In this document: positions 6,636-64,000 of the stretch, one piece after another | How positions within the stretch are numbered: position 1 is the first letter of the stretch | How the letters are laid out: every line of letters starts with the position of its first letter | Assembly: GCA_004299845.1 (NCBI GenBank) | Contig: CP036201.1 | Location: 3,720,001 to 3,784,000, forward strand | DNA: 64,000 bases | Direction: 5' to 3' | Source of the DNA: Verrucomicrobia bacterium S94 | GTDB taxonomy: Bacteria; Verrucomicrobiota; Kiritimatiellia; Kiritimatiellales; Pontiellaceae | Position numbers and translations under genes: made by a program | The notes under the pieces: model-generated | Database searches by the model: none | What the model saw: the letters and a program-made list of their open reading frames with translations, nothing else | Told to the model about the DNA's origin: nothing

Positions 6636-6657
6636 GGGAGGATTCCGTGATTCTGCA

Positions 6658-7446: not shown

Positions 7447-7500
7447 CCGGGTATTAAGCTAAACCCCGGAGGCATTGGCAACTTCCAATCTTTGGAACTC

Positions 7501-8091: not shown

Positions 8092-8161
8092 AGAACCTCC
8101 TTCAATAGGAATCCTGAAACCGTTTCCGGTTATTAAAGACCGGATTCGGTTTCAGTATTTC

Positions 8162-9175: not shown

Positions 9176-10356
9176 TTTTCATCCTCCTTGGGATTGTAGT
9201 TTTCGTCTCTCAACTTCTGAAGTTTCTTTAAATTGACCGGAACCTGAAGAATCAGCCTCCGCTTTTCGATAAGTGCGAGTATAAACGATCCCATGCCCAG
9301 TAGCAAGACGATGATCTGGACGGGAATTCCGATGATTGGAAATATCGTTGTTCCATAGATGACGGCCAGACCGATCGAAACCACGCCGATGATTTTGCCG
9401 AGGGAATTATTTATTTTCCGCAGAATCAGACTTCCGATCACAAGGGCCAGCAGGATACGGCTGAGATACACCATGGCCGCCCATGAGCCCAGCAGCAGGA
9501 TGCCCAGCGGTATGCCGATGAGAGAGGTGATACTCATCATACCGAAAAGAGGCAGGCCGAGGGATGCAATCAGGCCGATTAAAAGACATTTCCCGGGGGC
9601 CTGTTTGATCAGCTGTGCCGACATGGAGGTGGTCATCGGGAACAGTGTGAGGAACGGAATGCCGACCAGTAATGCCGCCAAAAAGCTGATCAGAATTTTG
9701 TTGAGCCGCTCGGCAGAGAGCAGATCCGCGGCCGGCGGGGTTGAAACGGTGCCGCCGATAACATCGGCGTCCAGAAACAGTTTTCTCGGGGCTCGGTATT
9801 CAAAATCGCCTTCGATCCGGGCTCCTTTGGCGAAGACAATGTCCTGTGCGCGTACGGAAACACTGCCTTGAATGGTTCCGGCAAAGGTAACGGTCTGGGC
9901 TGAAACTTCGAGGTCGCCTTCAATATGCCCCTCCTGTACCACACTCATGGCCCCGTAGACGAGGGCATTTCCATGGATATATGCATTGGTACCGAGAACA
10001 ATGGTGTTGCCTGCCGCCAGCAGGTTTCCGGCAATACCGCCGTCCACCTTGATGGTCGGGGCATACATGCGCAGGTTTCGTTCGCAGCTTCCGGTCTGTT
10101 CGATTTCCGTGACGTTGGCCGCCAGCACGTTACCCTGGTAGATGCCGGAGAGCTGCAGCGGGAATGCCGTGCCGATAAAAAGATCATTTTCAAACGTGCC
10201 GGAAACATCCGCTTCGTTGGCATAAACCCACTGCTCATTTTTGACCGAATCGCCCAGGCTTACCGTATAGACGTTGGTGGAAATCCAGGGAACGGTGGCC
10301 TGCACATGCACAGCGGTGGAGACTGCGAGTGTGGAGAAAAATAATTTTAAACGCAT
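9172..10356 (-). CDS. bactofilin-like (polymer-forming) membrane protein
   Basis: 394 residues. Signal peptide (about 1-20), then about 190 residues of right-handed beta-helix-like repeats with alternating glycine and hydrophobics (phrases such as [17 protein letters not shown] and [16 protein letters not shown]), as in bactofilins/DUF583 polymer-forming proteins. Four to five transmembrane helices (about 225-375) and a short charged C-terminal tail follow. Because of the signal peptide the beta-helix should lie outside the cytoplasm, unlike cytosolic bactofilins. It lies between nfeD (one base apart) and floA (four-base overlap), which ties it to the membrane-microdomain module. The function is inferred from this context. 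Confidence 0.75.
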
Positions 10357-10357
10357 A

Positions 10358-10828
10358 TTACACTTTCACGACGGAGATATGACCGCCGGAGGTTGAGGAA
10401 ACCCGGATGCGCTGGCCGGCTTCAATCCATTCGCCGTCGGCCATAACATCCATCCGCTTTCCGTTAAAGACAGCAATACCGGACGGGCGCAATGTGGAAA
10501 CAGCTTTACCTTCAGTGCCGACCTCGATCTTTTCTTCCATCGGCGATTTGTAATCGGCCTGATTCACCTGGAGGGAAAGGCTTTTTCCGATCCGGCTTTT
10601 CGGGAAATAACGAATCCAGACCACGAAGGTCAGAATACCGAACAACAACAGCCCGACGGCACTGATCAGGTTCCAGGGTTCGGGAAAATTCCTCAAGCCG
10701 ATCACGGCCGCAACGATCCAGGCCACGGATCCGAAAATGCCGAGGATGCCGCCGGGAATAAAAATCTCCATGCCGATCAGCACGAAGCCGACCAGCAGAA
10801 GGGTGAAATAAAGGGTAATCGGTTCCAT
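10358..10828 (-). CDS. nfeD: NfeD family membrane protein
   Basis: 156 residues, the short NfeD form without the ClpP-like protease domain. Three to four transmembrane helices (about 5-25, 28-45, 52-72) are followed by a C-terminal OB-fold with the motif VGTEGKAVSTLRPSG, VFNGKRMDVMADGEWI and a closing beta strand ISVVKV. NfeD proteins partner with flotillin/stomatin family proteins, and here floA is two genes downstream. The ATG sits about 95 bp after the FtsB-like gene, so this may be the first gene of the operon. Confidence 0.9.
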   Translation of the reverse strand: MEPITLYFTLLLVGFVLIGMEIFIPGGILGIFGSVAWIVAAVIGLRNFPEPWNLISAVGLLLFGILTFVVWIRYFPKSRIGKSLSLQVNQADYKSPMEEKIEVGTEGKAVSTLRPSGIAVFNGKRMDVMADGEWIEAGQRIRVSSTSGGHISVVKV

Positions 10829-45797: not shown

Positions 45798-46630
45798 CGA
45801 CGTTTCCTTCCCGTTGGTCAGGTAAACGTCCGCTACACCGGGAAGCTTTTTGATGAAGTGTTGTTGGTGTAGAGGACGCTTACCCGAAGGGAAGCGTCGG
45901 GAGTCTGAAGGACAACCGTCGGGAGTTGAAGCAGAGCGGGTTTGTTCGACGTTTCCCTCCCGTTGATCAGGTAAACGCCCGCTACACCGGAAAGCTTTTT
46001 GATGAAGTGTTGTTGGTGTAGAGGACGCTTACCCGAAGGGAAGCGTCGGGAGTTTGAAAACAACCGTCGCGAGTTGAAGCTGAGCGGGTTTGTTCGACGT
46101 TTCCCTCCCGCTGGTCAGGTAAACGTCCGCTACACCGGGAAGCTTTTGAAGAGGAAATACCGGAGGTGTAGAGGACGCTTACCCGTAAGGAAAGCGTCGG
46201 GAGTCTGAAGGACAACCGTCGGGAGTTGAAGTTGAGCGGGTCTGTTCGACGTTTCCTTCCCGCTGGTCAGGTAAACGTCCGCTACACCGGGGCGCTTTTG
46301 AAGAGGAAATGCCGTTGGTGTAGAGGACGCTTACCCGTAAGGAAAGCGTCGGGAGTCTGAAGGACAACCGTCGGGAGATGAAGTTGAGCGGGTCTGTTCG
46401 ACGTTTCCTTCCTGCTGGTCAGGTAAACGTCCGCTACACCGGGGCGCTTTTGAAGAGGAAATGCCGTTGGTGTAGAGGACGCTTACCCGTAAGGAAAGCG
46501 TCGGGAGTCTGAAGGACAACCGTCGGGAGTTGAAGCTGAGCGGGTCTGTTCGACGTTTCCTTCCTGCTGGTCAGGTAAACGTCCGCTACACCGGTTGTGT
46601 TGGTTGTAGAAACGTCCGCTACACCGGCGG
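45798..46630. repeat. REP-like tandem array 3 (6 copies of ~150 bp)
   Basis: Copies begin at 45798, 45947, 46095, 46247, 46399 and 46551; the last is truncated. Periods of 148-152 bp. The unit is the same as in arrays 1 and 2, with some copies carrying CCCTCCCG or CCTTCCTG variants in the left hairpin. It lies between the start of the ferredoxin gene and the stop of the oxidoreductase gene. Confidence 0.85.
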
Positions 46631-50450: not shown

Positions 50451-51566
50451 ATGCAGATGGAAAATAACAAGGTGGTTCTGATCGGCGTGGTTGGGATGTC
50501 GCCGGCGGTTTTAACGGAAACAGTATGGGCTTTATCGAGAGAAAATCCTCCGGTGGTTCCTGATGAAGTAGTAGCTATCACTACATCTCAAGGGCGGGAA
50601 CAGATCGTACAGCAGCTGTTCGGACATGACAGTGTTTGGGATTCACTGCGGGATGCTCTTGGAGAATCGGCTGCTGAAAAACTTCGCTTCGATATCGAGA
50701 AATCTATCCGCATGATTCACGGTTTTGCGGATATTGCTTCGCCGGAAGAAAATGAGCAGTGCGCTGATTTTCTGCTGCAGCAGCTTCGACCCTATGCAGA
50801 AGAGGAAAAAACACAAATCATTGCCTCGATTGCCGGAGGAAGAAAAACGATGAGCGCACTCATGCTCTCCTGCATGAATCTGCTCGGAAGGGAACAGGAT
50901 CGGGTATGCCACGTCCTCGTGAATGAACCTTTCGAAAAGAGACTCAAGCCGGCATTCTACTTTCCGCAACCTGGAGTAATCCATGAGTACGAAGATCAAC
51001 GCACACAGGAAGTGAAAAAATATGCATCAGAAGATGCTGTCATTGCGCTTTCAGACATTCCTTTCGTCTGTGTTTCCAAGTGGCAGAATCTTAAATATGC
51101 GCCCAGCTCTTATTCTGCATTGGTTCGTTGGATCAATACGGGTGAATTTGATTTTCCACATATATGGATTAATCCCCATTCCCGAATGCTGGGAATCCGC
51201 GAATCGGAGGATTCGGAAACACTCGGGAAACTCACTTTTGGCCTGCTCTATTTTTGGCTTGGTTGGATGAAGCAATCGCCAGCCATTGAAGGCTGGAACA
51301 GTTTCCGGGATTATTTGGAAAAACATCTGCAGGACCAGCCGATTGATGAGCTGGATTATGAATGGGCTGGAGCCTTTGAAGATAAATATTTTTCTGATGG
51401 TAATTTCGTCATTGACGACGATATTTTGCGCAAACGGATGGGCGATGTCCGCAAAAAGCTGGAAGCCCTTTTCCGCTTCCCTCAACTGGCCAAGACACTC
51501 GTTCCTGATCTACAGAAACAGGAAGTCTTCAGCTTTCCGTTAAGCAATATTGAATGGAAAAACTGA
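50451..51566 (+). CDS. Cas_NE0113-family CARF protein
   Basis: 371 residues. N-terminal CARF fold with VLIGVVGMSPAVLTETVWAL and the ligand-loop GGRKTMSALML (about residue 127), like family Cas_NE0113 (PF09623/TIGR02584) found in type III loci. The C-terminal half (FVCVSKWQNLKYAPSSYSAL, LLYFWLGWMK) has no nuclease motif I can recognise. This family has been linked to ring-nuclease or cOA-sensing roles; which applies here is open. GGGAG upstream supports ATG 50451 or 50457. First gene of the type III-B locus; a 55-bp gap precedes the next gene. Confidence 0.75.
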   Translation: MQMENNKVVLIGVVGMSPAVLTETVWALSRENPPVVPDEVVAITTSQGREQIVQQLFGHDSVWDSLRDALGESAAEKLRFDIEKSIRMIHGFADIASPEENEQCADFLLQQLRPYAEEEKTQIIASIAGGRKTMSALMLSCMNLLGREQDRVCHVLVNEPFEKRLKPAFYFPQPGVIHEYEDQRTQEVKKYASEDAVIALSDIPFVCVSKWQNLKYAPSSYSALVRWINTGEFDFPHIWINPHSRMLGIRESEDSETLGKLTFGLLYFWLGWMKQSPAIEGWNSFRDYLEKHLQDQPIDELDYEWAGAFEDKYFSDGNFVIDDDILRKRMGDVRKKLEALFRFPQLAKTLVPDLQKQEVFSFPLSNIEWKN

Positions 51567-51621
51567 ATTGCGGACGTCCGAAAAAACGGGGATCAGTCCG
51601 AACCGGTTTATAACCCTTCCC

Positions 51622-51996
51622 ATGCACAGCACTTCACACATTCTGATCGGAAACGCCTTCCCGCTGACGCTTGTCAAGCGTGCGGTTCGGATTGTGCCGG
51701 TTTCGCAGGAGGTGTTGCGGGAGGCGGCGCGCGGCAAAACCGTTGTTTCGTTCTGGGGGCATGCCAACACACTTGCCGCCGCCGAGGCGTTTTGCGGGCT
51801 TCCGCTGCTTCCGGCCTCTCCGCGTCCCGCCCTCGAGCTTTCCGTCGACGGCCTGCCCCGGCTCAACGGCCAGACATTTTCCGAATGCTGGATCGTTTCG
51901 CCGGAATACACCGCAGGATACCGTCCCGAACCCGGTGCTGAAGTGCCCGCCGACAACATCATCGGCTGGAAAATTTTAAAAATAACGTGGGAGTAA
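51622..51996 (+). CDS. DUF1874-like ring nuclease (Crn2/AcrIII-1-type)
   Basis: 124 residues from ATG 51622 (the frame is open upstream to 51550, where only a TTG is available). Pattern matches the DUF1874 family (viral AcrIII-1 and bacterial Crn2): N-terminal HILIGNAFPLTLVKRAVRIV, the GHANT motif with His at residue 47, the FCGLPL segment after it, and a beta-rich end SECWIVSPEYTAGYRPEPGAE ending in KILKITW. The equivalent histidine is the catalytic residue that cleaves cyclic tetra-adenylate in AcrIII-1. It stops 2 bp before the Card1-like gene, so activator and quencher are made from the same transcript. No ribosome site is obvious. Confidence 0.65.
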   Translation: MHSTSHILIGNAFPLTLVKRAVRIVPVSQEVLREAARGKTVVSFWGHANTLAAAEAFCGLPLLPASPRPALELSVDGLPRLNGQTFSECWIVSPEYTAGYRPEPGAEVPADNIIGWKILKITWE

Positions 51997-51998
51997 AT

Positions 51999-53123
51999 AT
52001 GCAAAAGTATCGAACTCAGATTATCATCGTCTCGGGACAGATGATCCCGAATGTAACTCCGGTCATGGATGATGCCATTTGTCCGGAAAAGGTGATTATA
52101 TGCGCCAGCAACGCCATGCGCGAACGAGCCCGTATCCTGAAAACCTTTTTTACCGCAAAGCAGATAGAAGCCGAAATCTTTGAGCTGGGTGATGCCTATG
52201 CGTTTGAGGAATTGCAGAACCGCTTCATGGAACTGGCCATTCAATGCGAAGGGGAAACGTCCCTAGCCGTCAATCTGACGGGAGGAACCAAACTGATGAC
52301 CATTGCCGCCCAGATGGTTTTTGAAAAGCGTCCGTGCTTTTATGTCATTCCGGAAAAGGATCAGATCATCATGCTGGATGCGGCCAATCCAGCCCTGTAC
52401 GAGATTGCCGATAAAATACAGCTGCGCGATTTCTTCGCCATTCATGGATACACCGTGACCGGCCAGAAACGGAAAAAGAAAATTTCCGCTTCAACCGTCG
52501 ATTTAGCGGAAACGCTGCTGAAACAATTCGACCGGTATAAAACAGAGATTGGAAAACTGAACTACCTGGCGGCAAAAGCGGAAGACGCCTATTCCTTGAC
52601 GGTGAAAAATGAAATTTCAGACGCCACCTGCGACCTCCTGGATCTTTTCTATAAGCAGGGCAGTATTTCTTATTACGACGATAAAAAAATCGAGTTTGCC
52701 TCCAGCGAAGCGCGCGATTTCTGCAAAGGCTTCTGGCTCGAGGACTACATCCTGAGCGAACTGTCCAAAGCGGATGAGGTCATCGGGCTGCAGGACTGGG
52801 CCGGATCGATTCAAATTGAAAGTGCCTCCGGCACCAAAAACGAAATCGATGCCGCCTTCCTCTATAACAACGAGCTTTACGTTATCGAATGCAAAACCGC
52901 GCGCATGGACGATAAAGGCGATGATGTGCTCTATAAAATTGATACCATCCGCGGCTATGCCGGGCTCTATACAAAACCGATTATCGCCACCTTCAAAGAA
53001 CTGAACAAATACGAGCGCCAGCGCGCCCGGGACCTGGGCATCACCCTGATCGAAGGCCGCAATCTCAACCGCTTTGCCGAACATTTAATGAAAAAAATCC
53101 ATCCGAAAGGAGAAACCGAATGA
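51999..53123 (+). CDS. Card1/Can2-type CARF nuclease
   Basis: 374 residues from ATG 51999 (GGGAG five bases upstream; a GTG at 51987 is rejected). CARF domain about 1-145 with VSGQMIPNVTPVM and NLTGGTKLMTIAAQMVF (GGTK at 95-98). A helical linker about 150-250 is followed by a DUF1887-type PD-(D/E)xK nuclease: Asp284 (NEIDAAF), Glu297-x-Lys299 (VIECK). Card1/Can2 proteins are DNases/RNases switched on by cyclic tetra-adenylate made by Cas10. Stop overlaps the Cmr2 start by four bases. Likely a strong cell-wide effector. Confidence 0.85.
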   Translation: MQKYRTQIIIVSGQMIPNVTPVMDDAICPEKVIICASNAMRERARILKTFFTAKQIEAEIFELGDAYAFEELQNRFMELAIQCEGETSLAVNLTGGTKLMTIAAQMVFEKRPCFYVIPEKDQIIMLDAANPALYEIADKIQLRDFFAIHGYTVTGQKRKKKISASTVDLAETLLKQFDRYKTEIGKLNYLAAKAEDAYSLTVKNEISDATCDLLDLFYKQGSISYYDDKKIEFASSEARDFCKGFWLEDYILSELSKADEVIGLQDWAGSIQIESASGTKNEIDAAFLYNNELYVIECKTARMDDKGDDVLYKIDTIRGYAGLYTKPIIATFKELNKYERQRARDLGITLIEGRNLNRFAEHLMKKIHPKGETE

Positions 53124-55597
53124 GTGAGGATTATTGGAAAAAGAAATTGATGGCTTACCTGCACGATCCGCCGTGCAAATGTTTTGACATTGGGGCGCAT
53201 GAACGAATTGCGGAAGGGTTCCGCAATGAAGCGGGAATTGAGCCGGCAGCTTATCAGGCGTTTGCTAAAATCTGCGATCACACGGCTTCTGCGGCTGACC
53301 GTTTTCCGTTTCCGTCCCGAAAGTGTTCGTCCAAATTTACCGGCGGCGAAGATTTTCCATTCAAGCATCCGTTTTGTAACGCGACACTGAAATTCCATGT
53401 TCCGGTGGAAACGGCGGAACTGGCGGAAGAACAGTTCCAAAAGGCCATCGGTGGGATTCCGTGTGACCTAGACTGGAAATCGAAGTTTTTCCTCTACTGG
53501 CGACGCTGGCCGGAGGAAGCCGCGAAGCAAGATCGGCGTTTGGCCTATCTGCCGGCGGATACACGCATTCCAGATCATACTATTTGGAATCACATGGGGC
53601 TGACCTCCGCTTTTCAGGCTTGTGTGAATGAAAGCGGGGACTTGAAACCGGCCTTTCTGCAGTTTCAACTGGGGCCGGTGCAGGAGTTTATTGCGGCTGC
53701 AAAAAGTACGCGTGATCTGGCGGCAGGCAGTTATCTGCTCTCTTGGCTGATGGCCCACGCCATGAAAGCGGTGGCTGATGAAGTCGGGCCAGATGCCGTG
53801 ATCTTTCCGAATCTGCGTGGACAGCCAATCTTCGACCTGCTCAACAAGTCGCTTTACGATCAAATCCGGTTTGCTGGGAAATCGGGAGCGGAAGAATCGC
53901 TCTGGCAACGAATGTATGGTGACGGGATCGATGGGCTGCTTCGGCCGACGCTGCCGAACCGTTTTTGCGCGCTGGTTCCGGCGTGGCAGGCGAGGGAAAT
54001 CGCGGGCAACGCGGAAAAGGCTGTCCGGAACGCTTTGCTGGAAGCCGGAGAAAAGGTGTGGCCGCATGTGGGCGAGGGATACAAAGTGCGTGACCGCATC
54101 GAGTGGGCGGCGTTTACACCCACTGAAATCGATCGGAAACGCTGGGTGAATCAGTTGGAAACTTTTCTTCAGATTACATGGACGGCAGGACCGTGGAAAG
54201 AACGCTCGGATCGATCCAGCAAAAAATGCAACCTCCATGAAAAACTGGCGCGTGAAATCATTCCGGAGGCGGATCGCGACCGCCGGTGTTACCTTGACCA
54301 GGATCCAGAAAAAGAACTCAACGCAGGATTTTACTGGCAGGAACATATCGAAGATTCCGGACGACAGTTGGCTGGTCGTCGCAATCTGCGCGACTTCTTT
54401 CAGATTCCGGAAGACAAAAAACAAGCCGGTTCTAAAAAGGATCGACTGACAGGGCGCGAGGAGGAGATCGGCGAAACGGGGTATGGTGCGTTGAGCATCC
54501 TCAAGCGCATGTTCCATAAACAGGTGCTGTTTCCTCAGCTGGGCTGCTCTGAACAGGCTTTCTGGAAAGCAGCTGGCTATGAAGATACCCGCTCTGTCGC
54601 AGAGAAAAACCGGTTGTCGGCCACAGAGCGTCAGAAAGGAAAAGGTAAATCCGCCAATCCGTATATTGCGCTGCTGGCGCTGGACGGCGATGAGATGGGG
54701 CGCTGGATGTCAGGTGAAAAAGCACAGCGGTTCGTGGATAATCTGGCAGGCAAGGCTCCCGGCTATTTTATGGGACTGCCCGGTTTCGATCCGAAGCTCA
54801 AACGGGCACTTACGCCGGCGTATCATCAGCAGTTTTCCGAGGCGCTTTCCAATGTCGCGCTTCATATGGCGGCTCCGGTTGTGGAAGGGTTCGGAGGACA
54901 GCTGATCTATGCCGGTGGTGATGATGTTCTGGCCATGTTGCCAGCTACCGAAGCGTTGGAATGTGCCTGGGCGCTGCGCTGCTGTTTTCGAGGAGAAACA
55001 CTGCCTGATCATCTGCAGAACTGCGTTAAGCTGAACAGCCGGGGCGATGGCTTCGTAGATGCTGGATTGGGGTATCCGCTGATGGCACCTGGGCTGGAGG
55101 CGGATGTCTCCTGCGGAATCGCAATCGGGCATTGTAACCATCCGCTGCAGGCGCTCGTCCGAGAGGCTCAGAAAGCGGAGAAACGGGCAAAAAACCGGTA
55201 TGAACGCGCAGCGTTCGCACTATCCCTTGTCAAGCGTTCCGGAGAAACCCTGCACTGGGGCGGGAAGTGGACAAGTAATGCTCTGCCGCTTTACCTAGCG
55301 TTTGAACAGTTCAGTGAAGACGAAAAGCTGTCTGGTCGTTTCCCGTACGCTTTGGCGGAGTTGCTGAAGCCGTACCGTCTGGATGCCGAAGAGAAGTCGC
55401 CGAAATCATTCCGCGATGTGGTGTGGTCGGAATTCTGCCATGTGCTGTATCAGCAGAGCGATGGAAGGCTGTCCCCCCGGGATCTGCCGCTGGCCGATGG
55501 TTATCTCGACCATTGCGTTGAGTCGAACCGCTGGGCTGACTTTCCCAATCTGTTTCTGGCCGCAGCCTTTATCAACCGTCCGAGAGGAGAAGAATAA
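53120..55597 (+). CDS. cmr2: Cmr2 (Cas10), type III-B large subunit
   Basis: 825 residues. HD region starts at residue 15 (YLHDPPCK) with ICDHTASAAD near 53. Two palm-type cyclase domains: ALDGDEMGRW with Asp522 and the catalytic GGDD at 599-602 (YAGGDDVL). Both nuclease and cyclase motifs are intact, so cOA synthesis is expected. A cluster of cysteines and basic residues lies between. Cmr2 with Cmr3-6 and crRNA forms the effector complex. ATGA overlap with the Card1-like gene. Two bases after the stop comes cmr3. Confidence 0.95.
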   Translation: MSEDYWKKKLMAYLHDPPCKCFDIGAHERIAEGFRNEAGIEPAAYQAFAKICDHTASAADRFPFPSRKCSSKFTGGEDFPFKHPFCNATLKFHVPVETAELAEEQFQKAIGGIPCDLDWKSKFFLYWRRWPEEAAKQDRRLAYLPADTRIPDHTIWNHMGLTSAFQACVNESGDLKPAFLQFQLGPVQEFIAAAKSTRDLAAGSYLLSWLMAHAMKAVADEVGPDAVIFPNLRGQPIFDLLNKSLYDQIRFAGKSGAEESLWQRMYGDGIDGLLRPTLPNRFCALVPAWQAREIAGNAEKAVRNALLEAGEKVWPHVGEGYKVRDRIEWAAFTPTEIDRKRWVNQLETFLQITWTAGPWKERSDRSSKKCNLHEKLAREIIPEADRDRRCYLDQDPEKELNAGFYWQEHIEDSGRQLAGRRNLRDFFQIPEDKKQAGSKKDRLTGREEEIGETGYGALSILKRMFHKQVLFPQLGCSEQAFWKAAGYEDTRSVAEKNRLSATERQKGKGKSANPYIALLALDGDEMGRWMSGEKAQRFVDNLAGKAPGYFMGLPGFDPKLKRALTPAYHQQFSEALSNVALHMAAPVVEGFGGQLIYAGGDDVLAMLPATEALECAWALRCCFRGETLPDHLQNCVKLNSRGDGFVDAGLGYPLMAPGLEADVSCGIAIGHCNHPLQALVREAQKAEKRAKNRYERAAFALSLVKRSGETLHWGGKWTSNALPLYLAFEQFSEDEKLSGRFPYALAELLKPYRLDAEEKSPKSFRDVVWSEFCHVLYQQSDGRLSPRDLPLADGYLDHCVESNRWADFPNLFLAAAFINRPRGEE

Positions 55598-55599
55598 TC

Positions 55600-56819
55600 A
55601 TGTGCTGGTATGAACTGAAACTTGAGCCGCGCGATGTCCTGTTTTTCCGTGATGCACGTCCGATGGAAGCCTCGTCGGTCGGTAGCGGCGCCAACTGGCC
55701 GTTGCCCAATGTCTTGCACGACGCTCTCATTCAGGGGCTGAAACGGCAATGGCCAGAACGGCAGCCGTGGGAAGTGGAACATCGAAATGCGAATAAAAAT
55801 GACAACCGTTCTGAAAAGGAGTTCCGCAGCCTTCGTTTCGGCGGACTGAAGACCGCCGGGCTTTTCCCGGCTCAAGGCGACGAAATCTTCTTCCCTTGCC
55901 CGCTGGATCTTGATCCGGAGGGGACACGATGCAGCTGATAGATCGGCCTGAGGAAAGCAACCTGCCCGCGTTCATCGAAAAGGTGGCCGTGCTTACGGGA
56001 AAACCAAGTAAGAAAGAGCTTCCGCACTGGATCAGCAGTACTCAGTTTTCGGCCTATCTGAACGGGAATTCAGTCGAGCTTGAAGAAAATCCGGAACCGC
56101 TGTTCGATATCGAAACGCGTCCGGGAATCGGCATAGATCCCGAATGCGGCTCCGTCGATACCGGAGGAGAGGGAGAGGGCGGAAAATTCTATCTTGCCGA
56201 ATATCTGCGTCTACGCGATGGGATTTCGTTACGCGGTTACGCCAAATGTGAATCTTCTTTGCGCGGTGAAGTGAAAGCCGATGTACTCGAAAAGCTTTTT
56301 GAAGGATCTCGCCACGTACCGCTTACATTCGGAGGTCAGCAGGGTGTTGTTGGCCTGTCATGTGTACGGCTCGAAAAACCGTTACAGGGGCTTGTTGCCG
56401 AAAATGCATCCGATGGCTGCTGGGTTAAATGGATTCTGCTCGCACCTGCGGTGTTTTCCAATGGGTGGAAACCGGACTGGGTTGATGAAAACGGCATCGT
56501 CCGGTTACCCGCCGAGCGTCCGCCGCGAAAGCCCGGCCAAACCCGCGAGGAGTGGCGAAAAAGTTTTACGGAGGCACCGAAGGCTGTTCTGGCCGCCGCC
56601 TGCAGCGGGAAACCGTTGCCGTTTTCCGGTTGGAATACTCGAATTGGCGGGCCGCGTCCCGCTCGGCTCGCGGTTCCCGCCGGATCGGTCTACTGGTTCC
56701 GTGCGGAATCTCCAACGGATGCGGCCACTCTTGTCAAAGTCCTGCAGGGACGCTGTATGAGCAGTTTTTACGGAGAAAAAGGTTTCGGTCTCGGAATATG
56801 TGTTCAACAAAAAATGTAA
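55600..56819 (+). pseudogene. cmr3: Cmr3, RAMP protein, one frameshift
   Basis: Frame one (55600-55923) has the RAMP start YELKLEPRDVLFFRDARPME, then WPLPNVLHDALIQGLKRQW; frame two (to 56819) starts before MQLIDRPEESNLPAF and carries HWISSTQFSAYLNGN, FDIETRPGIGIDP and the glycine-rich end GEKGFGLGI. One extra G at GGGG 55920-55923 gives a continuous 406-residue protein. Cmr3 holds the crRNA 5' tag next to Cmr2. With the rest of the operon intact and no in-frame damage, a consensus error is likely. GAGGAGAAG precedes ATG 55600. Confidence 0.8.
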
Positions 56820-56859
56820 GATCGGCCTGCAGGTCGAACGAGTGAAAAGGAGAATAAGC

Positions 56860-57714
56860 ATGAAAAAAATGACGATGACCCTGTTTGCAAGAACCCCCGT
56901 GCATGTCGGCGCGGGCAACTCTGTCGGTGCGGTCGACTCGCCCATCCAGCGCGAACGCCATACCCGCATCCCCATCATCCCCGGCTCCTCCCTCAAAGGG
57001 GTGCTCGCCGACCTCTGGAATGAAAAGGACAGCAACGGAAAATGGGTGCGGAGCCCAACCGGCAAAGAGCTGTTCGGCGAGGATGAAGGAGGAAAAAAAG
57101 TGGATGGGAAAGAAATACAGGCCAAAGCCGGCAGCCTGCTCATCGGCGAAGCCCGCGTGCTCGCCTTTCCCGTCCGCTCCGCCAAAGGCATGTTTGCCTG
57201 GATCACCTGTCCGCTGGTGCTGGAACGATTTGCGCGGGATAGGGACATTCAATGCCCGGATCTGCCTGCGCTGACGGAGAACCAGTGTCTCTCTTCGGGC
57301 AGCATCCTGCTCGAAAATACAGCGGTTCTCGAAGAGTATCGTATTGAGTCGGTCGGCGACGCAAATGCCATTGTAGAATTACTCAAATCGGTTTGCTCCG
57401 ATTCGGTCTGGAGCAGCATGCCGGAACGGCTGGTGGTGCTTTCGAACGACTTGTTCTCCTATTTTGTTGAGCAGGCCTGTGAGGTGGTTTCCCGTATTCG
57501 CATCAATGACGAAACGGGCGTAGTTGCCAAGGGTGCGCTCTTTAATCAGGAGCAGGTGCCCAGCGAAACACTTTTCTATAGTGCAATATTTGTGGATGAT
57601 ACAAAAATTCCGGATGCTGAAGATAAGCTGAAGGACATGCTTTCAGCAGGTTTTCTGCAGGTGGGGGGCGATGCGTCAACCGGTTTGGGCTATTGCAGTG
57701 TGGAGGTGCTCTAA
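56860..57714 (+). CDS. cmr4: Cmr4, Cas7-like backbone subunit
   Basis: 284 residues from ATG 56860 (AAAGGAGAATAAGC upstream; ATG 56800 lies inside cmr3). RAMP signature PVHVGAGNSVGAVDSPIQRE with the Asp in GAVDSP equivalent to the RNA-cleaving residue, IPGSSLKGVLADLW with the Lys and Gly loop, and FLQVGGDASTGLGY at the C terminus. Cleaves target RNA at six-nucleotide intervals. Stop and the next start share ATG/TAA overlap at 57714. Confidence 0.93.
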   Translation: MKKMTMTLFARTPVHVGAGNSVGAVDSPIQRERHTRIPIIPGSSLKGVLADLWNEKDSNGKWVRSPTGKELFGEDEGGKKVDGKEIQAKAGSLLIGEARVLAFPVRSAKGMFAWITCPLVLERFARDRDIQCPDLPALTENQCLSSGSILLENTAVLEEYRIESVGDANAIVELLKSVCSDSVWSSMPERLVVLSNDLFSYFVEQACEVVSRIRINDETGVVAKGALFNQEQVPSETLFYSAIFVDDTKIPDAEDKLKDMLSAGFLQVGGDASTGLGYCSVEVL

Positions 57715-58109
57715 TGAAAAATCTGGATCAGATCCGCGCGAAAAACGCACTCTATGCTGCGAAGACAACCCGCTTCAGCGGAACGGAAGGCGGTGGCATT
57801 ATTAAAAAGGTTCCGACCATGATTCGAGAGAACGGACTGCTCGGTGCATTGGCTTTCGCGTGTGAAAAGAAAAAGGATGGCACCTATAAAAACGGCGACT
57901 TTCACAAGGTGTTTGAACAGATTCTCGTGCATCTTCAAGATGAGCGAATCGGGGCACTGAAAAAAGTGGGGGCGCATGCGGATGATTTGCTGGAGCATGC
58001 CGTTCTGATTTCTTCTGCCCAGCTTCGCGTGATTACGGATGAAGCGATGGCCTATCTTGCATTTCTGCGGCGTTTTGCTTCTGATGAAAACGGAGAGAGT
58101 GATGAGTAG
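57714..58109 (+). CDS. cmr5: Cmr5 small subunit
   Basis: 131 residues from ATG 57714. All-helical small subunit with AKNALYAAKTTRFSG near the start and a tail of helices (VITDEAMAYLAFLRRFA). Binds the major groove side of the Cmr backbone. It overlaps cmr4 by one base (TAATG) and cmr6 by eight, so the three are tightly coupled. Confidence 0.88.
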   Translation: MKNLDQIRAKNALYAAKTTRFSGTEGGGIIKKVPTMIRENGLLGALAFACEKKKDGTYKNGDFHKVFEQILVHLQDERIGALKKVGAHADDLLEHAVLISSAQLRVITDEAMAYLAFLRRFASDENGESDE

Positions 58110-59613
58110 ATATCTGCCATTAACAACCGCGGTGAGGGAGGTCGCGGACCTCTTGTCCGATCAGCCGGATAAAGTCGTCAGTCTCTATGGACAACTGGCG
58201 GAAATTGAACATTCACCAGGATCAGACAACCAGAAGTCGAAACAGGCCGCTCCGCTGCTAAGTAAACTCTGTGCTCTGGAATTCAATCGGGTGGAGTCCG
58301 CGTCGTTGCGCCTGGAAAAGTTCGTTCATTTGGGCGCCACGACCAAAGACAATGAAATGAACGAAGTCTGTAAGCGGATCAACAAGCTCGATCTACGGTG
58401 CGAGGACTGGCATCTGCCCGAGTCGCTTTGGCGTGACGGCATCGAACTCGTGATGAAGTTGGAGGGGCGCCTTGCGATCCATCTGGCGGGCGGGGTGCTG
58501 GAAAATACGGGGATGTGCATCCATCCACATTTCAACTGTCCGTATCTTCCCGGCAGCGGCGTCAAGGGCGTTGCCCGCCATGCAGCCTGGGCAAAGTGGA
58601 ACGAAACCAAATCATTCGAGGATGCACTGAAGGTGGCTTGGACGTTCGGCTATCCGACTGGGGATACCATGCCCCAAAAGGAGAAGGCTCGCACTCGCCC
58701 CGAAAAGGATTATCTGGACAATTTCCTGGCTCTCCGTAAACCGGAATGGTTCGGAAAAGAGGGCAGATATAAGTCCTTTGCAGGGTTGGTCTCTTTTCTG
58801 CCCGCCTTCCCGCTGGCAGGCGGATTTAAGGTGGTGGCCGATGTGCTGACTTGCCATCATCCGGATTATTACAAAGGGGAAAACGAGCGGGCCACGGATG
58901 ACGAATCCCCAATTCCGCAATTTTTTCCGGTGATTGAATCCGGCAGTCGGTTTCGTTTTGTACTGCGGCCGTTGAGGAGTGTCGGAGAAGCGGAACTGCC
59001 TTTCGGTGCTGAGGTACTGGAATGGGCGCGTGCATTTCTGATTGAGGGTATGACTCTTTACGGTGCGGGTGCCAAAACCGCCGCCGGATACGGTTGGTTC
59101 TCATATAACCCGGATGAGGAAAAAAGACGTCTTGCGCAGCAGGAGGAGGCGCGTAAACGCCGGTTACTGGAGGAAAAGTCCGTCGCCATCCAGTCGGAGC
59201 TCTATGCGCTGGCGGATCCGTCGCCGTTTCAGTTCGGCGAGATGAAGAAACGCTTCGACGAACTGGTTGCTATGGCAACGGCGGAGCGGATGGAGTTGCC
59301 CGGGAAACAGCGCATTGAAGATGCACTCAACCGCATGAAAAAGAAGTTGCCTCAGGCATCGCCGCTGGATCAGCTGCGCGAAAAATGGGCGAAGCAGAAT
59401 ATGAACGCGGTGATCAAAAGCGATATCGCAAAATTTGATAAGCAGAAGCCGGAACAGAAGAAGCTGATCGTGGAACTGCTGCGCGAGCCGGAGGGAGTCG
59501 GTGCGGAAATCTGGAGCCAGATCCGGCAGGGACAGAAGGGCAATATCGCTAAGGGTGTGACGGCTCTTCGAACCTATTGTAAAAACGAACTTAAACTGGG
59601 AAAAATGCCATAA
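58102..59613 (+). CDS. cmr6: Cmr6 with long C-terminal extension
   Basis: 503 residues from ATG 58102. The Cas7-like RAMP core (about 95-345) has HPHFNCPYLPGSGVKGVARHA and the end glycine loop AGAKTAAGYGWFSYN. Typical Cmr6 proteins have about 250-350 residues; here an N-terminal helical part (1-90) and about 150 C-terminal residues are extra. They are charged and helical (EEKRRLAQQEEARKRRLLE, then KQKPEQKKLIVELL), so coiled-coil or additional helical domain. The end overlaps the cmr1 start. Role in complex assembly next to Cmr1 is known for the family; the role of the extension is open. Confidence 0.88.
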   Translation: MSRYLPLTTAVREVADLLSDQPDKVVSLYGQLAEIEHSPGSDNQKSKQAAPLLSKLCALEFNRVESASLRLEKFVHLGATTKDNEMNEVCKRINKLDLRCEDWHLPESLWRDGIELVMKLEGRLAIHLAGGVLENTGMCIHPHFNCPYLPGSGVKGVARHAAWAKWNETKSFEDALKVAWTFGYPTGDTMPQKEKARTRPEKDYLDNFLALRKPEWFGKEGRYKSFAGLVSFLPAFPLAGGFKVVADVLTCHHPDYYKGENERATDDESPIPQFFPVIESGSRFRFVLRPLRSVGEAELPFGAEVLEWARAFLIEGMTLYGAGAKTAAGYGWFSYNPDEEKRRLAQQEEARKRRLLEEKSVAIQSELYALADPSPFQFGEMKKRFDELVAMATAERMELPGKQRIEDALNRMKKKLPQASPLDQLREKWAKQNMNAVIKSDIAKFDKQKPEQKKLIVELLREPEGVGAEIWSQIRQGQKGNIAKGVTALRTYCKNELKLGKMP

Positions 59614-60419
59614 TGAAAACACTCTTTGATGGAACGATGGAGATCATCACCCCCTGCTTCTGCGCCGGGGCGGATCAGTCCAAGGCGGAAATCCGCGCAC
59701 CCTCGATTCGAGGGGAACTGCGTTGGTGGTTCCGTGCGCTGGGGGGAACCCGGCAGTTGGAAGCTGAGGTGTTTGGCTCAATAAAAGTGACGAAGGGTGA
59801 GAGGGTAATTAGCGAGAATCAGGCAAGTACTCTGATTGTCCGTGTTTCCGATCTGCGCAAAACGGGGGCAGAGAGCGGGCAGATGCCGTCGAATCACCGG
59901 TTCTTTGTTAAAACCCGCTTGGACAGCGGCAGTGCGGCTATGATTCCGGCCGGGTGGAGTTTCAGGCTTCAGATTCTTCAGGCAAAGCATACGAGTTGTG
60001 ATGATTTGATCGATTTTGCCGTTCGATGCTTTATGACGCTTGGCGGATTGGGATTGCGTTCCAACCGCGGATTGGGAGCGGTCCAGACCATGACGAAGCA
60101 ATCGGATTTCCAATCTTTGGAAAATGATTTGTGCAGCAGGGGTTTTGAAGTTTTCACTTTTCCCGTTCAGCAAAGTGCGCTGGATGCGCTGGTTGTGCTT
60201 GAGGAGCAGATTAAGAGCTTTCGCGAACAGGAGGGTGTTCAGAAAGACAGCAACAATGCCATGGGATTCGTACAAAGAAGAAAGAGACATGCTTCCTGTT
60301 TGCGGACGCGCCCGCTGAAAATGGAGAATGAAACATTCCTGCCAATCATGTTTTATTCCGAGGCGGCCATGGGAAATGTGACTGGTTTGCGCAGTAAACT
60401 GAAAGCTCATTTCGCATGA
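59613..60419 (+). CDS. cmr1: Cmr1 RAMP protein
   Basis: 268 residues, at the short end for Cmr1. It starts TLFDGTMEIITPCFCAGADQ, then EIRAPSIRGELRWWFRALGG, the hallmark Cmr1 motif, and CFMTLGGLGLRSNRGLGAVQ near residue 150. Cmr1 caps the complex at the crRNA 3' end and helps Cmr6. Start overlaps the cmr6 stop by one base. A 39-bp gap precedes the CARF-HEPN gene. Confidence 0.93.
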   Translation: MKTLFDGTMEIITPCFCAGADQSKAEIRAPSIRGELRWWFRALGGTRQLEAEVFGSIKVTKGERVISENQASTLIVRVSDLRKTGAESGQMPSNHRFFVKTRLDSGSAAMIPAGWSFRLQILQAKHTSCDDLIDFAVRCFMTLGGLGLRSNRGLGAVQTMTKQSDFQSLENDLCSRGFEVFTFPVQQSALDALVVLEEQIKSFREQEGVQKDSNNAMGFVQRRKRHASCLRTRPLKMENETFLPIMFYSEAAMGNVTGLRSKLKAHFA

Positions 60420-60458
60420 TTTCTGAAGTGGGTTGAAAAACGAAGGGGAACGAATCTT

Positions 60459-61726
60459 ATGAGTAATTCAAATGTGTTATTGCTGAGTGTAGGCGGTTCG
60501 TCGGAACCGAATATTCATGTCATCAAGGAGCGGAAGCCGGAGAAGATTATCTTTTTTTCGTCGGAATCAAGCCGGGAAAAGGTAGAGCAGGAGATTCTTC
60601 CGGCGGTCGGCTATTTCCCCCGATGCGGCCATATTGTGACGCCGGATGCGGAGGATGTCGGGGTAAGCACGTTTGAACTGCTGAAAAAAATGCCGGAGGA
60701 ACTGCGCAAGCTGGGCGAAACGATCGACTGGCCGCAGCTCTGCGGCTATACCGGCGGCACCAAGACCATGAGCGCGGCGGTGGTCTGGGCCTCATCGCGC
60801 TTCCCGTGTGAACTGCTGTATGTCGGCGGTCAAAAGCGTTCCAAGGGGGGCTGGGAATTGTTGAAAACGGGTCGGAGCAGCTGGTGGCCATTGAAAATCC
60901 ATGGAACGCAGTAGGCTGGTTTGAGGTCCGCACGGCCTTTGAACTGTTTAATCGGGCGCAGTACAGTAATGCCGCCAAAGTGCTCTCAGAGCTGTTGCAG
61001 AAAGTGCAGGCGCATGAGGTGCGGGTGATCGTTGAGTTTCTCCGAGACATCATGCAGGCGGTCGCCGACTGGGATGCCTTTCAGCATGCCCGGGCGCTCA
61101 AGGCGATGGAACGGGCGGTTCGGGAGCTGCCAAAAGTGCAGGGGTTGATCGAAGCTGAATTTCCGGAATTGCACCTGCTGCTCGAATGGCTGGAAACTGC
61201 GCGCGATCATTTGCGGGCGCTGAAAATTGCAAAAGATGGAGCTCTTCCCCTGTCGGAACCCCTTTGCGAAGAGCTGTTGTCAAATGCTTTGCGGCGTGCC
61301 CGCCTTGAAGGGAAATATGAGGATGCGACTGCCCGGCTCTATTCGCTGTTTGAGAAAGAGGTAAAGCGGCGCTTACTTGAACAGCATAACCTCGACAATT
61401 CTGCCTGTCTTCTGGATTCTATCCCGGAAACCATTCGGGATGACTATTCACGATATGCCGATGAAAAGAACGTCTGCCGGTTCGGTCTGAAAGGGACTGT
61501 TCATCTACTACAGGCACTGGGTTCACAGGATCTGTTTGTGGAGCGTTATCTGGAAAAGGAAAAGGAAATCGACCGTGCCATCGGCGCCCGCAATGCCAGC
61601 ATTTTGGGTCATGGAACGCAGCCTATTACAGAAGCAAAATTTGATGAATTGCTGATTCTTGTGCTTTTTGTTTTAGGGGTAAAAGAAGACGAAGTGCTTT
61701 GCATTCCCAAAATTCAAAAAAGCTAA
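60459..61726 (+). pseudogene. CARF-HEPN protein (TIGR02710-like), one frameshift
   Basis: Frame one has the CARF fold (NVLLLSVGGSSEPNIHVIK, GYTGGTKTMSAAVVWASSR); frame two continues VENGSEQLVAIENPWNAV and a helical HEPN domain with the RNase motif RNASILGH (R-x6-H). Adding one G to GGGGGG at 60845-60850 gives 422 residues with KGGLGIVENG, the family-typical join. CARF-HEPN proteins (Csm6/Csx1-like, here TIGR02710 branch) cut RNA when cyclic oligoadenylate binds. AGGGGAACG precedes the ATG. Probably functional in the organism. Confidence 0.8.
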
Positions 61727-61743
61727 ATATGGCCTAGGATCCG

Positions 61744-62148
61744 TCCATTCACCACCGCCGATCGATCCGGTTGAAGTCGCACGACTATGCGGGCGGCGGT
61801 GTGTATTTGAACCTTTCCCTTCGGTCATTATTTTCTGGCGAAAATTATATGTCGCTTCGCTTGATGGTTACGGTGTGTGCGCATCGGGAATTCATAGAAT
61901 GGGCGGGCGACAGCCCGTTTTTTCTTCCGAATGTGCGGAAAATGCTGGAGGAGGAATGGCGCCGGGGAGGCGAGGTGCGTACAGGCGTGTATCCCGGACC
62001 CTTTGTCGACATGCCCGACCATGTGCATGGACTGCTGCGCATCGAGCCCGGGGCCTCCGAGCTCGGCCGTGTCGTCGGCGGACGTCCGTTTTTTCATATC
62101 CGGCCCGCGGTTCTGGTTTACTCCTTTGCGTTGAGCGAAAGGAGACTT
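61744..62148 (+). pseudogene. RAYT (REP-associated tyrosine transposase) remnant
   Basis: The frame reads HHRRSIRLKSHDYAGGGVYL, then after a ~20-residue anomalous stretch MVTVCAHREFIEW and VDMPDHVHGLLRIEPG, the HUH motif of Y1/RAYT transposases. The tyrosine-bearing second half is missing and the region runs into the next small gene. It is best read as a truncated, decayed copy. The same window holds REP-like arrays of the kind RAYTs mobilise. Placed between the CARF-HEPN gene and the adaptation genes. Confidence 0.6.
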
Positions 62149-62394
62149 ATGAATGAAGGGAAGAACAACAGCCGCGTCGGCCGGCCGCTTCGTCCGGAAA
62201 AAACGGCGGAAGCGGACAAAATTATGCGCCTGTGCTGTCCGGACTGCGGCGGACGGGAGAGCGTTGTGCTGCCGGCGGGGGCGGAAGGTACTGCGGTGCT
62301 GCTGGAAACGCTGCGCCGAGCATGTCCGGACTGCGGCGGCGGGAAACGCCGTCTGGAACGGATACGTCATATCAGCAAAAAGGAGCGGAACTGA
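62149..62394 (+). CDS. small double-CxxC protein upstream of cas1
   Basis: 81 residues from ATG 62149 with a clean ribosome site (AAAGGAGACTT). Two identical CPDCGG motifs (near residues 30 and 62) separated by about 28 residues suggest one zinc ribbon; the rest is basic (NNSRVGRPLRPEKTAEADK and KRRLERIRHISKKERN). No family is recognised. The stop is two bases before the cas1 ATG, so it is co-translated with Cas1 and may help spacer capture. The longer frame fused to the RAYT remnant is considered an artefact. Confidence 0.55.
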   Translation: MNEGKNNSRVGRPLRPEKTAEADKIMRLCCPDCGGRESVVLPAGAEGTAVLLETLRRACPDCGGGKRRLERIRHISKKERN

Positions 62395-62396
62395 TT

Positions 62397-63425
62397 ATGC
62401 CTTCACTGGTCTTTAACGGAAACCGTATCGAAGCACGGCGCGAGAGCCGCCGGATCATTCTGAGCCGGACGGGCGACGACTGCAGCACTGCGGCCAGCGT
62501 GTCGGTTCCGCTTAACGATGTCGACCGCGCTACGGTGGTGGGGCACCCGCATGTTTCTGTATCGGTGCTCCAGAAACTGATGCGCGAAGGGATTCCCGTT
62601 TCGTTTATATCCGAAAAGGGTCATTGGTACGGCACCCTGCATCCGGATGGCGACAAAAATGCGGCGCGGCGGTTGATGCAGTACCGGCAGCAGGAAAATC
62701 CCGCGGTTCGGCTGAGCTGTGCCAAAAAGGTCGTGCGCGCCAAAATTCGGAATCAGCGTCGCGTTCTGCAGCGCCTCGCCGCAAACCGGAACGAATCGAA
62801 GGCCTCCGCGCACCTCGACGCGGTCGATACCCTGCGCCAGCTGGCCCGCACAGCGGGACAGGCTCCCGATAATGAATCGCTGCGCGGCATCGAAGGCACT
62901 GCCGCCGCGCGTTATTTTCAACGGCTCGGCCTTTTCTTTCCCGAAGCCGTACCCTTCAACGGCCGCTCCCGCCGGCCGCCGCGCGATGCCGCCAACGCGC
63001 TGCTCTCCTGGACCTATACCATTGTGCTGAGCGAAGTCGATGCCGCTCTGCGCCTGCAGGGGCTTGATCCCTGTTTCGGGTGGCTGCACGAAGTCTCTGC
63101 CGGAACGCCGGCCCTTGCACTGGATCTGCTCGAACCGTTGCGCGCGCCCGTCTGCGACCTGCTTGTGCTCAACCTCCTCAACCATGGAATCCTCGGTCCC
63201 GCCGACTTTCATGTAAGTGCCGAAGACGGCGGAACCTACCTGAACGAAACCGCCCGTAAAAAATTCTTCGTCCACTATGAATCCCACATGCAGCGCAAAT
63301 TCAAACCAGCTCCCGATGCGCCGCATACCGACCTGCGCCAATGCATCACCCGCCAGGTCTGGGGTGTGCTGCGCCTCCTCGAAAATCCGGAAACCGATGA
63401 AGCCGGAATCTTCCTTATGCCATGA
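62397..63425 (+). CDS. cas1: Cas1 integrase
   Basis: 342 residues from ATG 62397 (AAAGGAGCGG upstream; the open frame before it belongs to another reading of the small gene). Catalytic residues: Glu166 in RGIEGTAAARYF, His231 in WLHEVSAG and Asp243/Glu246 in LALDLLEPLRAPVCD. Together with Cas2 it inserts new spacers. GC-richer codon use than the cmr genes, hinting that the adaptation cassette was acquired separately. Overlaps the possible cas2 upstream start by four bases. Confidence 0.95.
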   Translation: MPSLVFNGNRIEARRESRRIILSRTGDDCSTAASVSVPLNDVDRATVVGHPHVSVSVLQKLMREGIPVSFISEKGHWYGTLHPDGDKNAARRLMQYRQQENPAVRLSCAKKVVRAKIRNQRRVLQRLAANRNESKASAHLDAVDTLRQLARTAGQAPDNESLRGIEGTAAARYFQRLGLFFPEAVPFNGRSRRPPRDAANALLSWTYTIVLSEVDAALRLQGLDPCFGWLHEVSAGTPALALDLLEPLRAPVCDLLVLNLLNHGILGPADFHVSAEDGGTYLNETARKKFFVHYESHMQRKFKPAPDAPHTDLRQCITRQVWGVLRLLENPETDEAGIFLMP

Positions 63426-63508
63426 TGCGCATCGATGAATTCAGCCGTTATTTCCCCGCTCAGCCGGAATACGGCTTTTACGACCCAGCCGGGAAGGAGA
63501 TCAAACAT

Positions 63509-63784
63509 ATGCTCCACCTTGTGGCCTACGACATCGCCGACGCCAAACGCCTCCGACTCGTTGCCAAAACCTGCGAGGATTTCGGGGTGCGCGTGGAATA
63601 TTCCGTTTTCGAATGCGACCTGCCGCCGGAACGTTTCGAAGGTTTCTGGAACGAACTCAACCGGATTATCAACAAAGATGAGGATTCTCTGCTCGCTTAT
63701 CGGATCTGTGGCGAATGCGTTAAAAAAACGCGTTCTTCCGGAACCGTCGTCCGTCCGGAAAAGGCCATGCTCTACATTTTATGA
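63509..63784 (+). CDS. cas2: Cas2
   Basis: 91 residues from ATG 63509, preceded by AAGGAG nine bases upstream; the MLHLVAYDIADAKRLRLVAK start and VRVEYSVFECDLPPERF are standard Cas2 (ferredoxin fold, metal-binding Asp in YDIAD). An in-frame ATG at 63422, which overlaps the cas1 stop, would add 29 residues (MMRIDEFSRYF...). The shorter start fits family length and ribosome site better, but the longer product cannot be excluded. Structural partner of Cas1 in spacer integration. Confidence 0.9.
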   Translation: MLHLVAYDIADAKRLRLVAKTCEDFGVRVEYSVFECDLPPERFEGFWNELNRIINKDEDSLLAYRICGECVKKTRSSGTVVRPEKAMLYIL

Positions 63785-63839: not shown

Positions 63840-64000
63840 GTAAGTGCATTTATTTCAATGAATTGTGTTTATTTTTGTGAGGTTTTTCATCCGGATTTCG
63901 GCCGGAAAAAGAGGGGAAAAATGGACTGCCGCCAAAACGGGCTTGCAACCTCCTGGGAATCAATGACATAAAAGGGGTGCTGTCCGAATAGGGCAGAAAG
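63840..64000 (+). CRISPR. leader and probable first CRISPR repeat, cut by window edge
   Basis: After the cas2 hairpin, about 135 bases of AT-rich leader-like sequence run to a candidate repeat starting near 63977 (GTGCTGTCCGAATAGGGCAG). It contains a short inverted stem CTGTCC/GGGCAG around GAATA, typical of CRISPR repeats, and is cut off at the last base. No second repeat can be seen, so the array is inferred from position and stem only. Confidence 0.45.

Follow-up and report, generated by a model that had tools for sequence, protein, structure and literature searches.

A type III-B CRISPR locus of Verrucomicrobia bacterium S94 with a candidate ring nuclease from a probable new branch of the Crn2/AcrIII-1 family

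We analysed a 64,000-nucleotide stretch of the Verrucomicrobia bacterium S94 genome (the window; bases 3720001-3784000 of a 4.1-Mb single-contig genome), in which positions 50451-63784 hold a type III-B (Cmr) operon with all genes in one direction. A 124-amino-acid (aa) protein encoded in this operon (51622..51996, plus strand, as are all operon genes given below) is probably a member of an unrecognised branch of the Crn2/AcrIII-1 family and a candidate cyclic tetra-adenylate (cA4) ring nuclease, as judged from its modelled fold and a profile-profile match. The best explanation of the whole is a type III-B locus with a cyclic oligoadenylate (cOA) alarm, most likely cA4, two nucleases, a Crn2-like off-switch acting through His47, and an NE0113 protein as sensor; we give this reading a probability of about 0.68. 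A preliminary description of the same DNA had proposed a layered cOA response with an off-switch, which stands as the best reading, although the number of effectors was overstated.

In the proposed mechanism, Cas10 and the Cmr subunits would detect phage RNA via CRISPR RNA and make cOA, most likely cA4. The alarm would activate Can2 and, provided that its gene is unbroken in living cells, a CARF-HEPN RNase, and nucleic acid would be degraded. A dimer of the 124-aa protein would bind cA4, cut it with His47, and end the response, and NE0113 may sense cOA as a slower CARF ring nuclease or a regulator. The direct basis for this scheme is the gene content, the motifs, the predicted folds, the alignment of the catalytic histidine, and the genomic linkage to a Cas10 with a cyclase motif, from which we infer cleavage, dimerisation, and the role of NE0113. 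The choice of cA4 as messenger is likewise inferential and is made because of the effector families present: Can1-2, Csx1, and Cami1 are described as cA4 activated in the available part of PMC11229360.

The 124-aa protein, its relatives, and a viral copy

The 124-aa protein had been described as a DUF1874-like ring nuclease between the NE0113 and Can2 genes, a resemblance that held for the fold and for profile-profile comparison but not for PF08960 (DUF1874) itself. No match to the protein was obtained in Pfam, NCBIfam, or PADLOC at E values up to 0.1; a PDB sequence search gave three unrelated matches (E of 0.56 or worse), and a six-member profile gave none. The AlphaFold2 (AF2) model, built from six sequences, had a mean predicted local distance difference test score (pLDDT) of 89.2. 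In a Foldseek search of the PDB, all 14 matches with an E value of <0.01 were DUF1874/AcrIII-1/Csx1-Crn2 chains (i.e., AcrIII-1, STIV B116, AFV3-109, SIRV1 114a, and Csx1-Crn2; best match 6scf, E 4.1e-5), after which the E value jumped to 0.33. VIA on the predicted model gave Z scores of 9.4 for 2j6b (104 residues, root mean square deviation 2.8) and 9.2 for 6scf; the Crn2-type entries ranged from 9.4 to 6.3, and the sole unrelated row had a Z score of 2.0. Five predicted viral structures also matched the small protein at E values of 0.001 or better, the named ones being uncharacterised proteins of phages or archaeal viruses.

Profile comparison pointed to the same family. An alignment of 18 branch members, which omits L037 (broken small-protein frame) and L040 (partial match), was compared by hhalign with nine DUF1874 proteins and gave an E value of 1.1e-4 and a score of 30.9 over 52 columns; controls reached at most 17.75 in 30 column shuffles and 14.22 with the reversed profile. 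The DUF1874 set consisted of nine viral proteins with the motif, taken from 15 viral stretches after five open reading frames (ORFs) unlike DUF1874 and one duplicate (L051, identical to L049) had been omitted by eye, and all nine match PF08960. In the profile alignment, His47 is aligned with the histidine of SAIGHE, which in the PDB sequences is His495 of Csx1-Crn2 in 8y6z and an alanine in the mutant entry 8y7g. According to the available part of PMC7293037, Csx1-Crn2 H495A does not degrade cA4. The S..GH..T motif is kept in the branch, and the positions invariant in its 18 sequences include Ser43, Gly46, His47, Arg68, Arg101, and Gly105, with T50 nearly so. A second conserved stretch, RPxxG, falls outside the profile alignment and appears to stand in place of the canonical R..EG, and the active site of the branch may therefore differ from that of canonical Crn2.

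Relatives of the small protein were found mainly beside type III systems. A search of the genome collection, whose reach was set by the exact peptide patterns used, returned 64 matching stretches, 19 of which were confirmed as small-protein loci. The named loci belonged to Verrucomicrobiota, Lentisphaerae, or Kiritimatiellae sensu lato (one to Chthoniobacterales), and two were titled only "bacterium" or "uncultured bacterium." Type III systems were present at 17 of the 19 loci (III-B, with one III-D-like locus, L025, that carries CARF-RelE, which we take to be the architecture of Cami1); the other two are L027 and the partial match L040. A gene for CARF-PDDEXK, CARF-HEPN, or CARF-RelE occurred in 12 of the 17 type III loci, and the other five all reach a contig end. 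Across 387 Verrucomicrobiota genomes, 27 carried the small protein and 63 matched the Cas10-Cmr2 palm model (57 above the cut-off). Twenty-five of the 27 carriers were Cas10 positive, with a Fisher p value of 4.8e-20 that treats related genomes as independent. Both genes lay on one contig, 1.0 to 7.1 kb apart, in 21 of the 25 and on different contigs in 4; two carriers had no such Cas10. GGDD is conserved in each of the 15 neighbouring Cas10 ORFs that were examined, and an HD motif was seen in 5 of them. NE0113 was present in 34 of the 387 genomes and in 8 of the 27 carriers (lists compared by eye), yet it was close by in 11 of the 19 loci. The small protein is thus tied more closely to Cas10 than to NE0113.

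A search with PF08960 over 288 genomes of the phylum gave no match above the cut-off and two weak ones (L041 and L042), with no ring nuclease seen among the ORFs of L042. One weak PF08960 match (E 0.136) lies elsewhere in the S94 genome. In L025 (positions 5351-10366), the small-protein gene is just downstream of genes that look kinase-like, vWA-like, and phosphatase-like by eye and beside CARF-RelE; a fusion suggested there by a 558-aa frame was dropped, as the stretch belonging to the family has a Met of its own within that frame, preceded by unrelated sequence. At positions 4976-5353 of L027, a family member is flanked by genes that appear metabolic by eye, with no recognised cas gene near.

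No relative of the window protein turned up at an E value of 0.01 among 50,697 phage records and 72,556 plasmid records. One viral relative was found, a 118-aa protein on the 69-kb IMG/VR contig UViG_3300005613_000049 (L058, positions 7992-8348), which has no Cas10 match. This copy shares the motifs LIGN.FP, SFWGH.NT, and RP..G with the branch and is a candidate type III anti-CRISPR. A second viral scan with the copy as query returned only itself, and its place in a family tree of 37 distinct rows (from 46) is weak, with open forks. A bolder proposal, to which we would give slightly less than an even chance, is that the 124-aa protein founds a separate ring nuclease family of the Crn2 fold, with its own GH and RPxxG active site, which would be a common type III off-switch in Verrucomicrobiota and which viruses would have either acquired or contributed as a type III anti-CRISPR.

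The Cmr operon, its effector genes, and its frame breaks

The genes of the operon are, in order, NE0113/CARF5, the 124-aa protein, Can2/Card1, Cas10, Cmr3 (two pieces), Cmr4, Cmr5, Cmr6, Cmr1, CARF-HEPN (two pieces), a REP-transposase-like remnant, cas1, and cas2. Cas10/Cmr2 (53120..55597; 825 aa) matched TIGR02577 at 217.7 bits (cut-off, 79.4) and has one HD at residues 15-16 and the GGDD cyclase motif at 599-602. The remaining subunits were identified as cmr4 (56860..57714; TIGR02580, 208.6 bits), cmr5 (57714..58109; TIGR01881, 31.6 bits against a cut-off of 27.9), cmr6 (58102..59613; TIGR01898, 86.5 bits), and cmr1 (59613..60419; TIGR01894, 49.9 bits), followed downstream by cas1 (62397..63425; PF01867, E 1.4e-77) and cas2 (63422..63784; TIGR01573, 50.2 bits). 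Cmr2, Cmr1, Cmr4, Cmr5, Cmr6, and cas2 all scored above their NCBIfam cut-offs; both Cmr3 pieces were above the Pfam cut-off and neither was above that of NCBIfam. Cas10/Cmr2 is therefore accompanied by Cmr1, Cmr3 (in two pieces, above the Pfam cut-off), Cmr4, Cmr5, and Cmr6, and the family models and the motif search agree with the preliminary description, which had reported a type III-B locus at 50451-63784 and a Cas10 with HD and GGDD at 599-602.

Two recognisable effector nuclease genes were found, not three. The first (51999..53123; 374 aa) had been called a Card1/Can2-type CARF nuclease, and this is confirmed by matches above the cut-off to PF09002 (78.4 bits) and PF23400 (57.8 bits) and by an ExK motif (ECK, 297-299), so that CARF and PD-(D/E)xK parts are both present. 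Its best PDB match was the solved Can2 structure 7bdv (E 2.5e-31), and PADLOC assigned it to CARF4-PDDEXK (8.5e-96). The second, proposed as a CARF-HEPN RNase, is split over two frames. Its HEPN half (60884..61726; TIGR02710 positions 109-374, PF09670, and PF22205) scored 98.3 bits, above the TIGR02710 cut-off of 83.9, and has an R-x6-H motif; its CARF half (60459..60914; TIGR02710 positions 2-109) scored 40.9 bits, below it. The family and the motif are thus as proposed, and both domains match, but they do not lie in a single open frame. The claim of three CARF effectors plus one ring nuclease holds for three CARF genes and goes too far in counting NE0113 as an effector. Because the identical trio (NE0113, CARF-HEPN, and CARF-PDDEXK) recurs in L038, the signalling network itself appears ordinary, a further case of multi-effector cA4 loci in which the off-switch branch is the new part. 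Such loci are known, and in the available part of PMC11229360 the co-occurrence of effectors is relatively common and three effectors are rare.

The split genes raise the question of whether the locus still works in this strain. A frame change divides cmr3 into an N-terminal piece (55600..55938; PF09700 positions 1-97) and a C-terminal piece in another frame (55929..56819; PF09700 positions 121-339), and the gene is a single frame in all 13 relatives with both halves. In the CARF-HEPN gene, the two TIGR02710 matches abut at model position 109 (window position ~60842), and the break adjoins a run of six G; in five other genomes with above-cut-off TIGR02710 matches, the gene is one frame of 413 to 523 aa. 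These two breaks within one locus, together with the intact cmr3 of the relatives, would fit a decaying locus in which both genes are true pseudogenes and the system no longer works. We regard such decay as unlikely. The remaining cas genes that were checked have unbroken frames, the catalytic motifs are in place, and the CARF-HEPN break lies beside the six-G run. Moreover, secA, which is normally essential, is split by a frame change in the same assembly (L100:14900-17463, minus strand; genome about 3687400-3689960), where one piece covers positions 122-203 of the secA model and the other 212-787 (no search was made for a second secA copy). Because secA is split too, insertion or deletion errors in the assembly are plausible and are the simplest reading of the splits, and the split secA is a warning about frame breaks elsewhere in this genome. 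A programmed frameshift in cmr3 or CARF-HEPN is not favoured, given the single frames of the relatives and the split secA.

Several observations weigh against a working alarm with a Crn2-like off-switch. With cmr3 and CARF-HEPN both split, the system might be dead in this genome, and no PF10040 match for Cas6 was found in the whole genome at E values up to 1 (a single Cas6 model was tried). PF08960 did not match the 124-aa protein in S94 or in five carrier relatives, and the hhalign probability is just 56% over the 52 columns. The p value for the association with Cas10 takes no account of kinship among genomes, the L027 member stands away from recognised cas genes, and the L040 match is partial. 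The Glu of R..EG, invariant in the nine DUF1874 proteins, is without an evident counterpart in this branch. This last point would suit a protein that keeps the Crn2 fold and binds cOA without cutting it, either as a sponge or as a regulator of Cas10. A precedent of sorts is Csx15, which was almost inactive in one study, whose authors raised the sponge alternative (available part of PMC12409355). Such a role is nevertheless quite unlikely in our view, since the catalytic His is kept within S..GH..T, where all 18 sequences agree at S43, G46, and H47 and nearly all share T50.

The NE0113/CARF5 protein and the surroundings of the locus

The first gene of the operon (50451..51566; 371 aa) had been described as encoding a Cas_NE0113 CARF protein, and matches to PF09623 (94.7 bits; cut-off, 23) and TIGR02584 (172.6 bits; cut-off, 80.65) bear this out. 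In its AF2 model (pLDDT 84.1; built from 12 members, one partial), the CARF domain spans residues 5-205 and is followed by a C-terminal part of ~165 aa. The CARF motifs MSPA and GGRKT are present. The nearest structures to this CARF were Cad1-CARF (Z 15.7) and the ring nuclease Sso2081 (Z 15.4), a tie in a list that covers mainly residues 5-219. The family is named "ring nuclease" in NCBIfam, and the available part of Makarova et al. 2014 (PMC4012209) places it among the CARF families that lack an effector domain at the C terminus and predicts a transcription regulator. Pfam searches of the 12 members (one partial) gave, besides PF09623, scattered single matches at E values of 0.08 or worse and no type III effector domain. 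For the C-terminal part, a comparison with three regulators of the same genome, in which one row (the second copy of L033) was omitted from the set, gave a weak PhoB-like winged-helix hint (hhalign probability, 16.5; 20 columns; score, 24.1 against ≤13.7 in 30 shuffles). A PhoB-type winged helix, which is not among the Pfam matches of the 12 members, was kept at hint level at most.

These results suggest that NE0113 is a sensor, a regulator, or a second ring nuclease rather than a proven effector. That it is a third toxic effector, as the preliminary description held, is not borne out and seems improbable: the C-terminal part after the CARF and the CARF motifs would allow it, but no type III effector domain was found by Pfam, the family is described as having none (PMC4012209, available part), its nearest CARFs are those of Cad1 and a ring nuclease, and the faint winged-helix signal points toward a regulator.

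A CRISPR array with a 37-nucleotide (nt) repeat begins at the window edge (63982..64000, plus strand), identified by its repeat copies; it has nine exact copies up to genome position 3784635 and one degenerate copy, nearly all beyond the window. A second array of 24 repeats lies at genome positions 3670789-3672640, 47 to 49 kb upstream of the window start, and its repeat differs from that of the first by two mismatches. No cas gene was seen by eye among the listed ORFs flanking the second array, where the model search covered the secA pieces only. The remnant at 61771-62394 is a degenerate-looking transposase-like gene of the REP-associated tyrosine transposase type. Transposase-like genes also adjoin cmr1 or effector genes in L023:16431-16850, L030:8084-8584, L031:16653-17675, and L033:16619-17614; NCBIfam weakly confirms the REP-associated tyrosine transposase identity for L023 alone, the others being assigned by eye or by similarity. 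Two tandem repeats were also noted. At least four copies of a ~152-nt unit lie at window positions 46001-46594 beside a reductase-like gene, in a search that began at 46000, so that the repeat may extend upstream. In L002 (positions 1724-2184), a 214-nt tandem repeat directly follows a CRISPR array and contains part of the CRISPR repeat.

Significance and comparison with known systems

No description of the off-switch branch was found in the openly accessible journal articles searched, where a passage on Verrucomicrobia dealt with the abundance of type V systems. Ring nuclease surveys depend on sequence models, and the branch occurs in 25 of the 63 Cas10-positive Verrucomicrobiota genomes. Because one of its members has no match in any of three model libraries, off-switches may be commoner among type III systems than such surveys suggest. 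If the branch is active, it would reveal which elements of the Crn2 active site an enzyme can do without, and its viral relative could be tested as an anti-CRISPR. A separate off-switch would also make sense beside Can2, because the Can2 family is without intrinsic ring nuclease activity: in the available part of Hoikkala et al. (PMC12409355), Can1-2 lack such activity and a ring nuclease is present in 66% of their loci.

As a multi-effector system, the locus resembles the type III loci with Csx1 and Can1-2 in PMC11229360, as far as the available part describes them, in combining a CARF-HEPN protein with a Can2-type nuclease. In the three-effector loci of the same source, the third CARF protein is the membrane protein Cam1, whereas here it is NE0113/CARF5. 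NE0113 shares its CARF fold with Cad1-CARF and Crn1 (Sso2081), at the Z scores given above. Unlike Cad1, it has no deaminase domain detected in the Pfam searches, and its C-terminal part is an addition beyond the length of Crn1.

The small protein shares with Csx16, Csx20, Csx15, Crn1, Crn3, and Crn4 its size and its place in type III loci, all of these being ring nucleases or candidates in the available parts of PMC12409355 and PMC12830947. It differs from them in having no NCBIfam or PADLOC match (with the coverage of each family in these libraries unchecked) and in its structural matches, which are to Crn2 alone, in a list that does not include families such as Csx16, Csx20, and Crn4 and so says little against them. 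The closest known relatives are Crn2/AcrIII-1 (DUF1874; PF08960, STIV_B116-like), which the branch resembles in its predicted fold, its S..GH..T motif with the catalytic His, its small size, and its occurrence both in type III loci and in a viral copy. In contrast to Crn2/AcrIII-1, the branch escapes PF08960, has 12 to 18% identity in the structural matches, and has its conserved Arg positions farther apart, with RPxxG apparently replacing R..EG. It is also mainly cellular in the data searched, whereas the available part of PMC12409355 lists Crn2 in 7 cellular loci and its homologue in 36 phage genomes.

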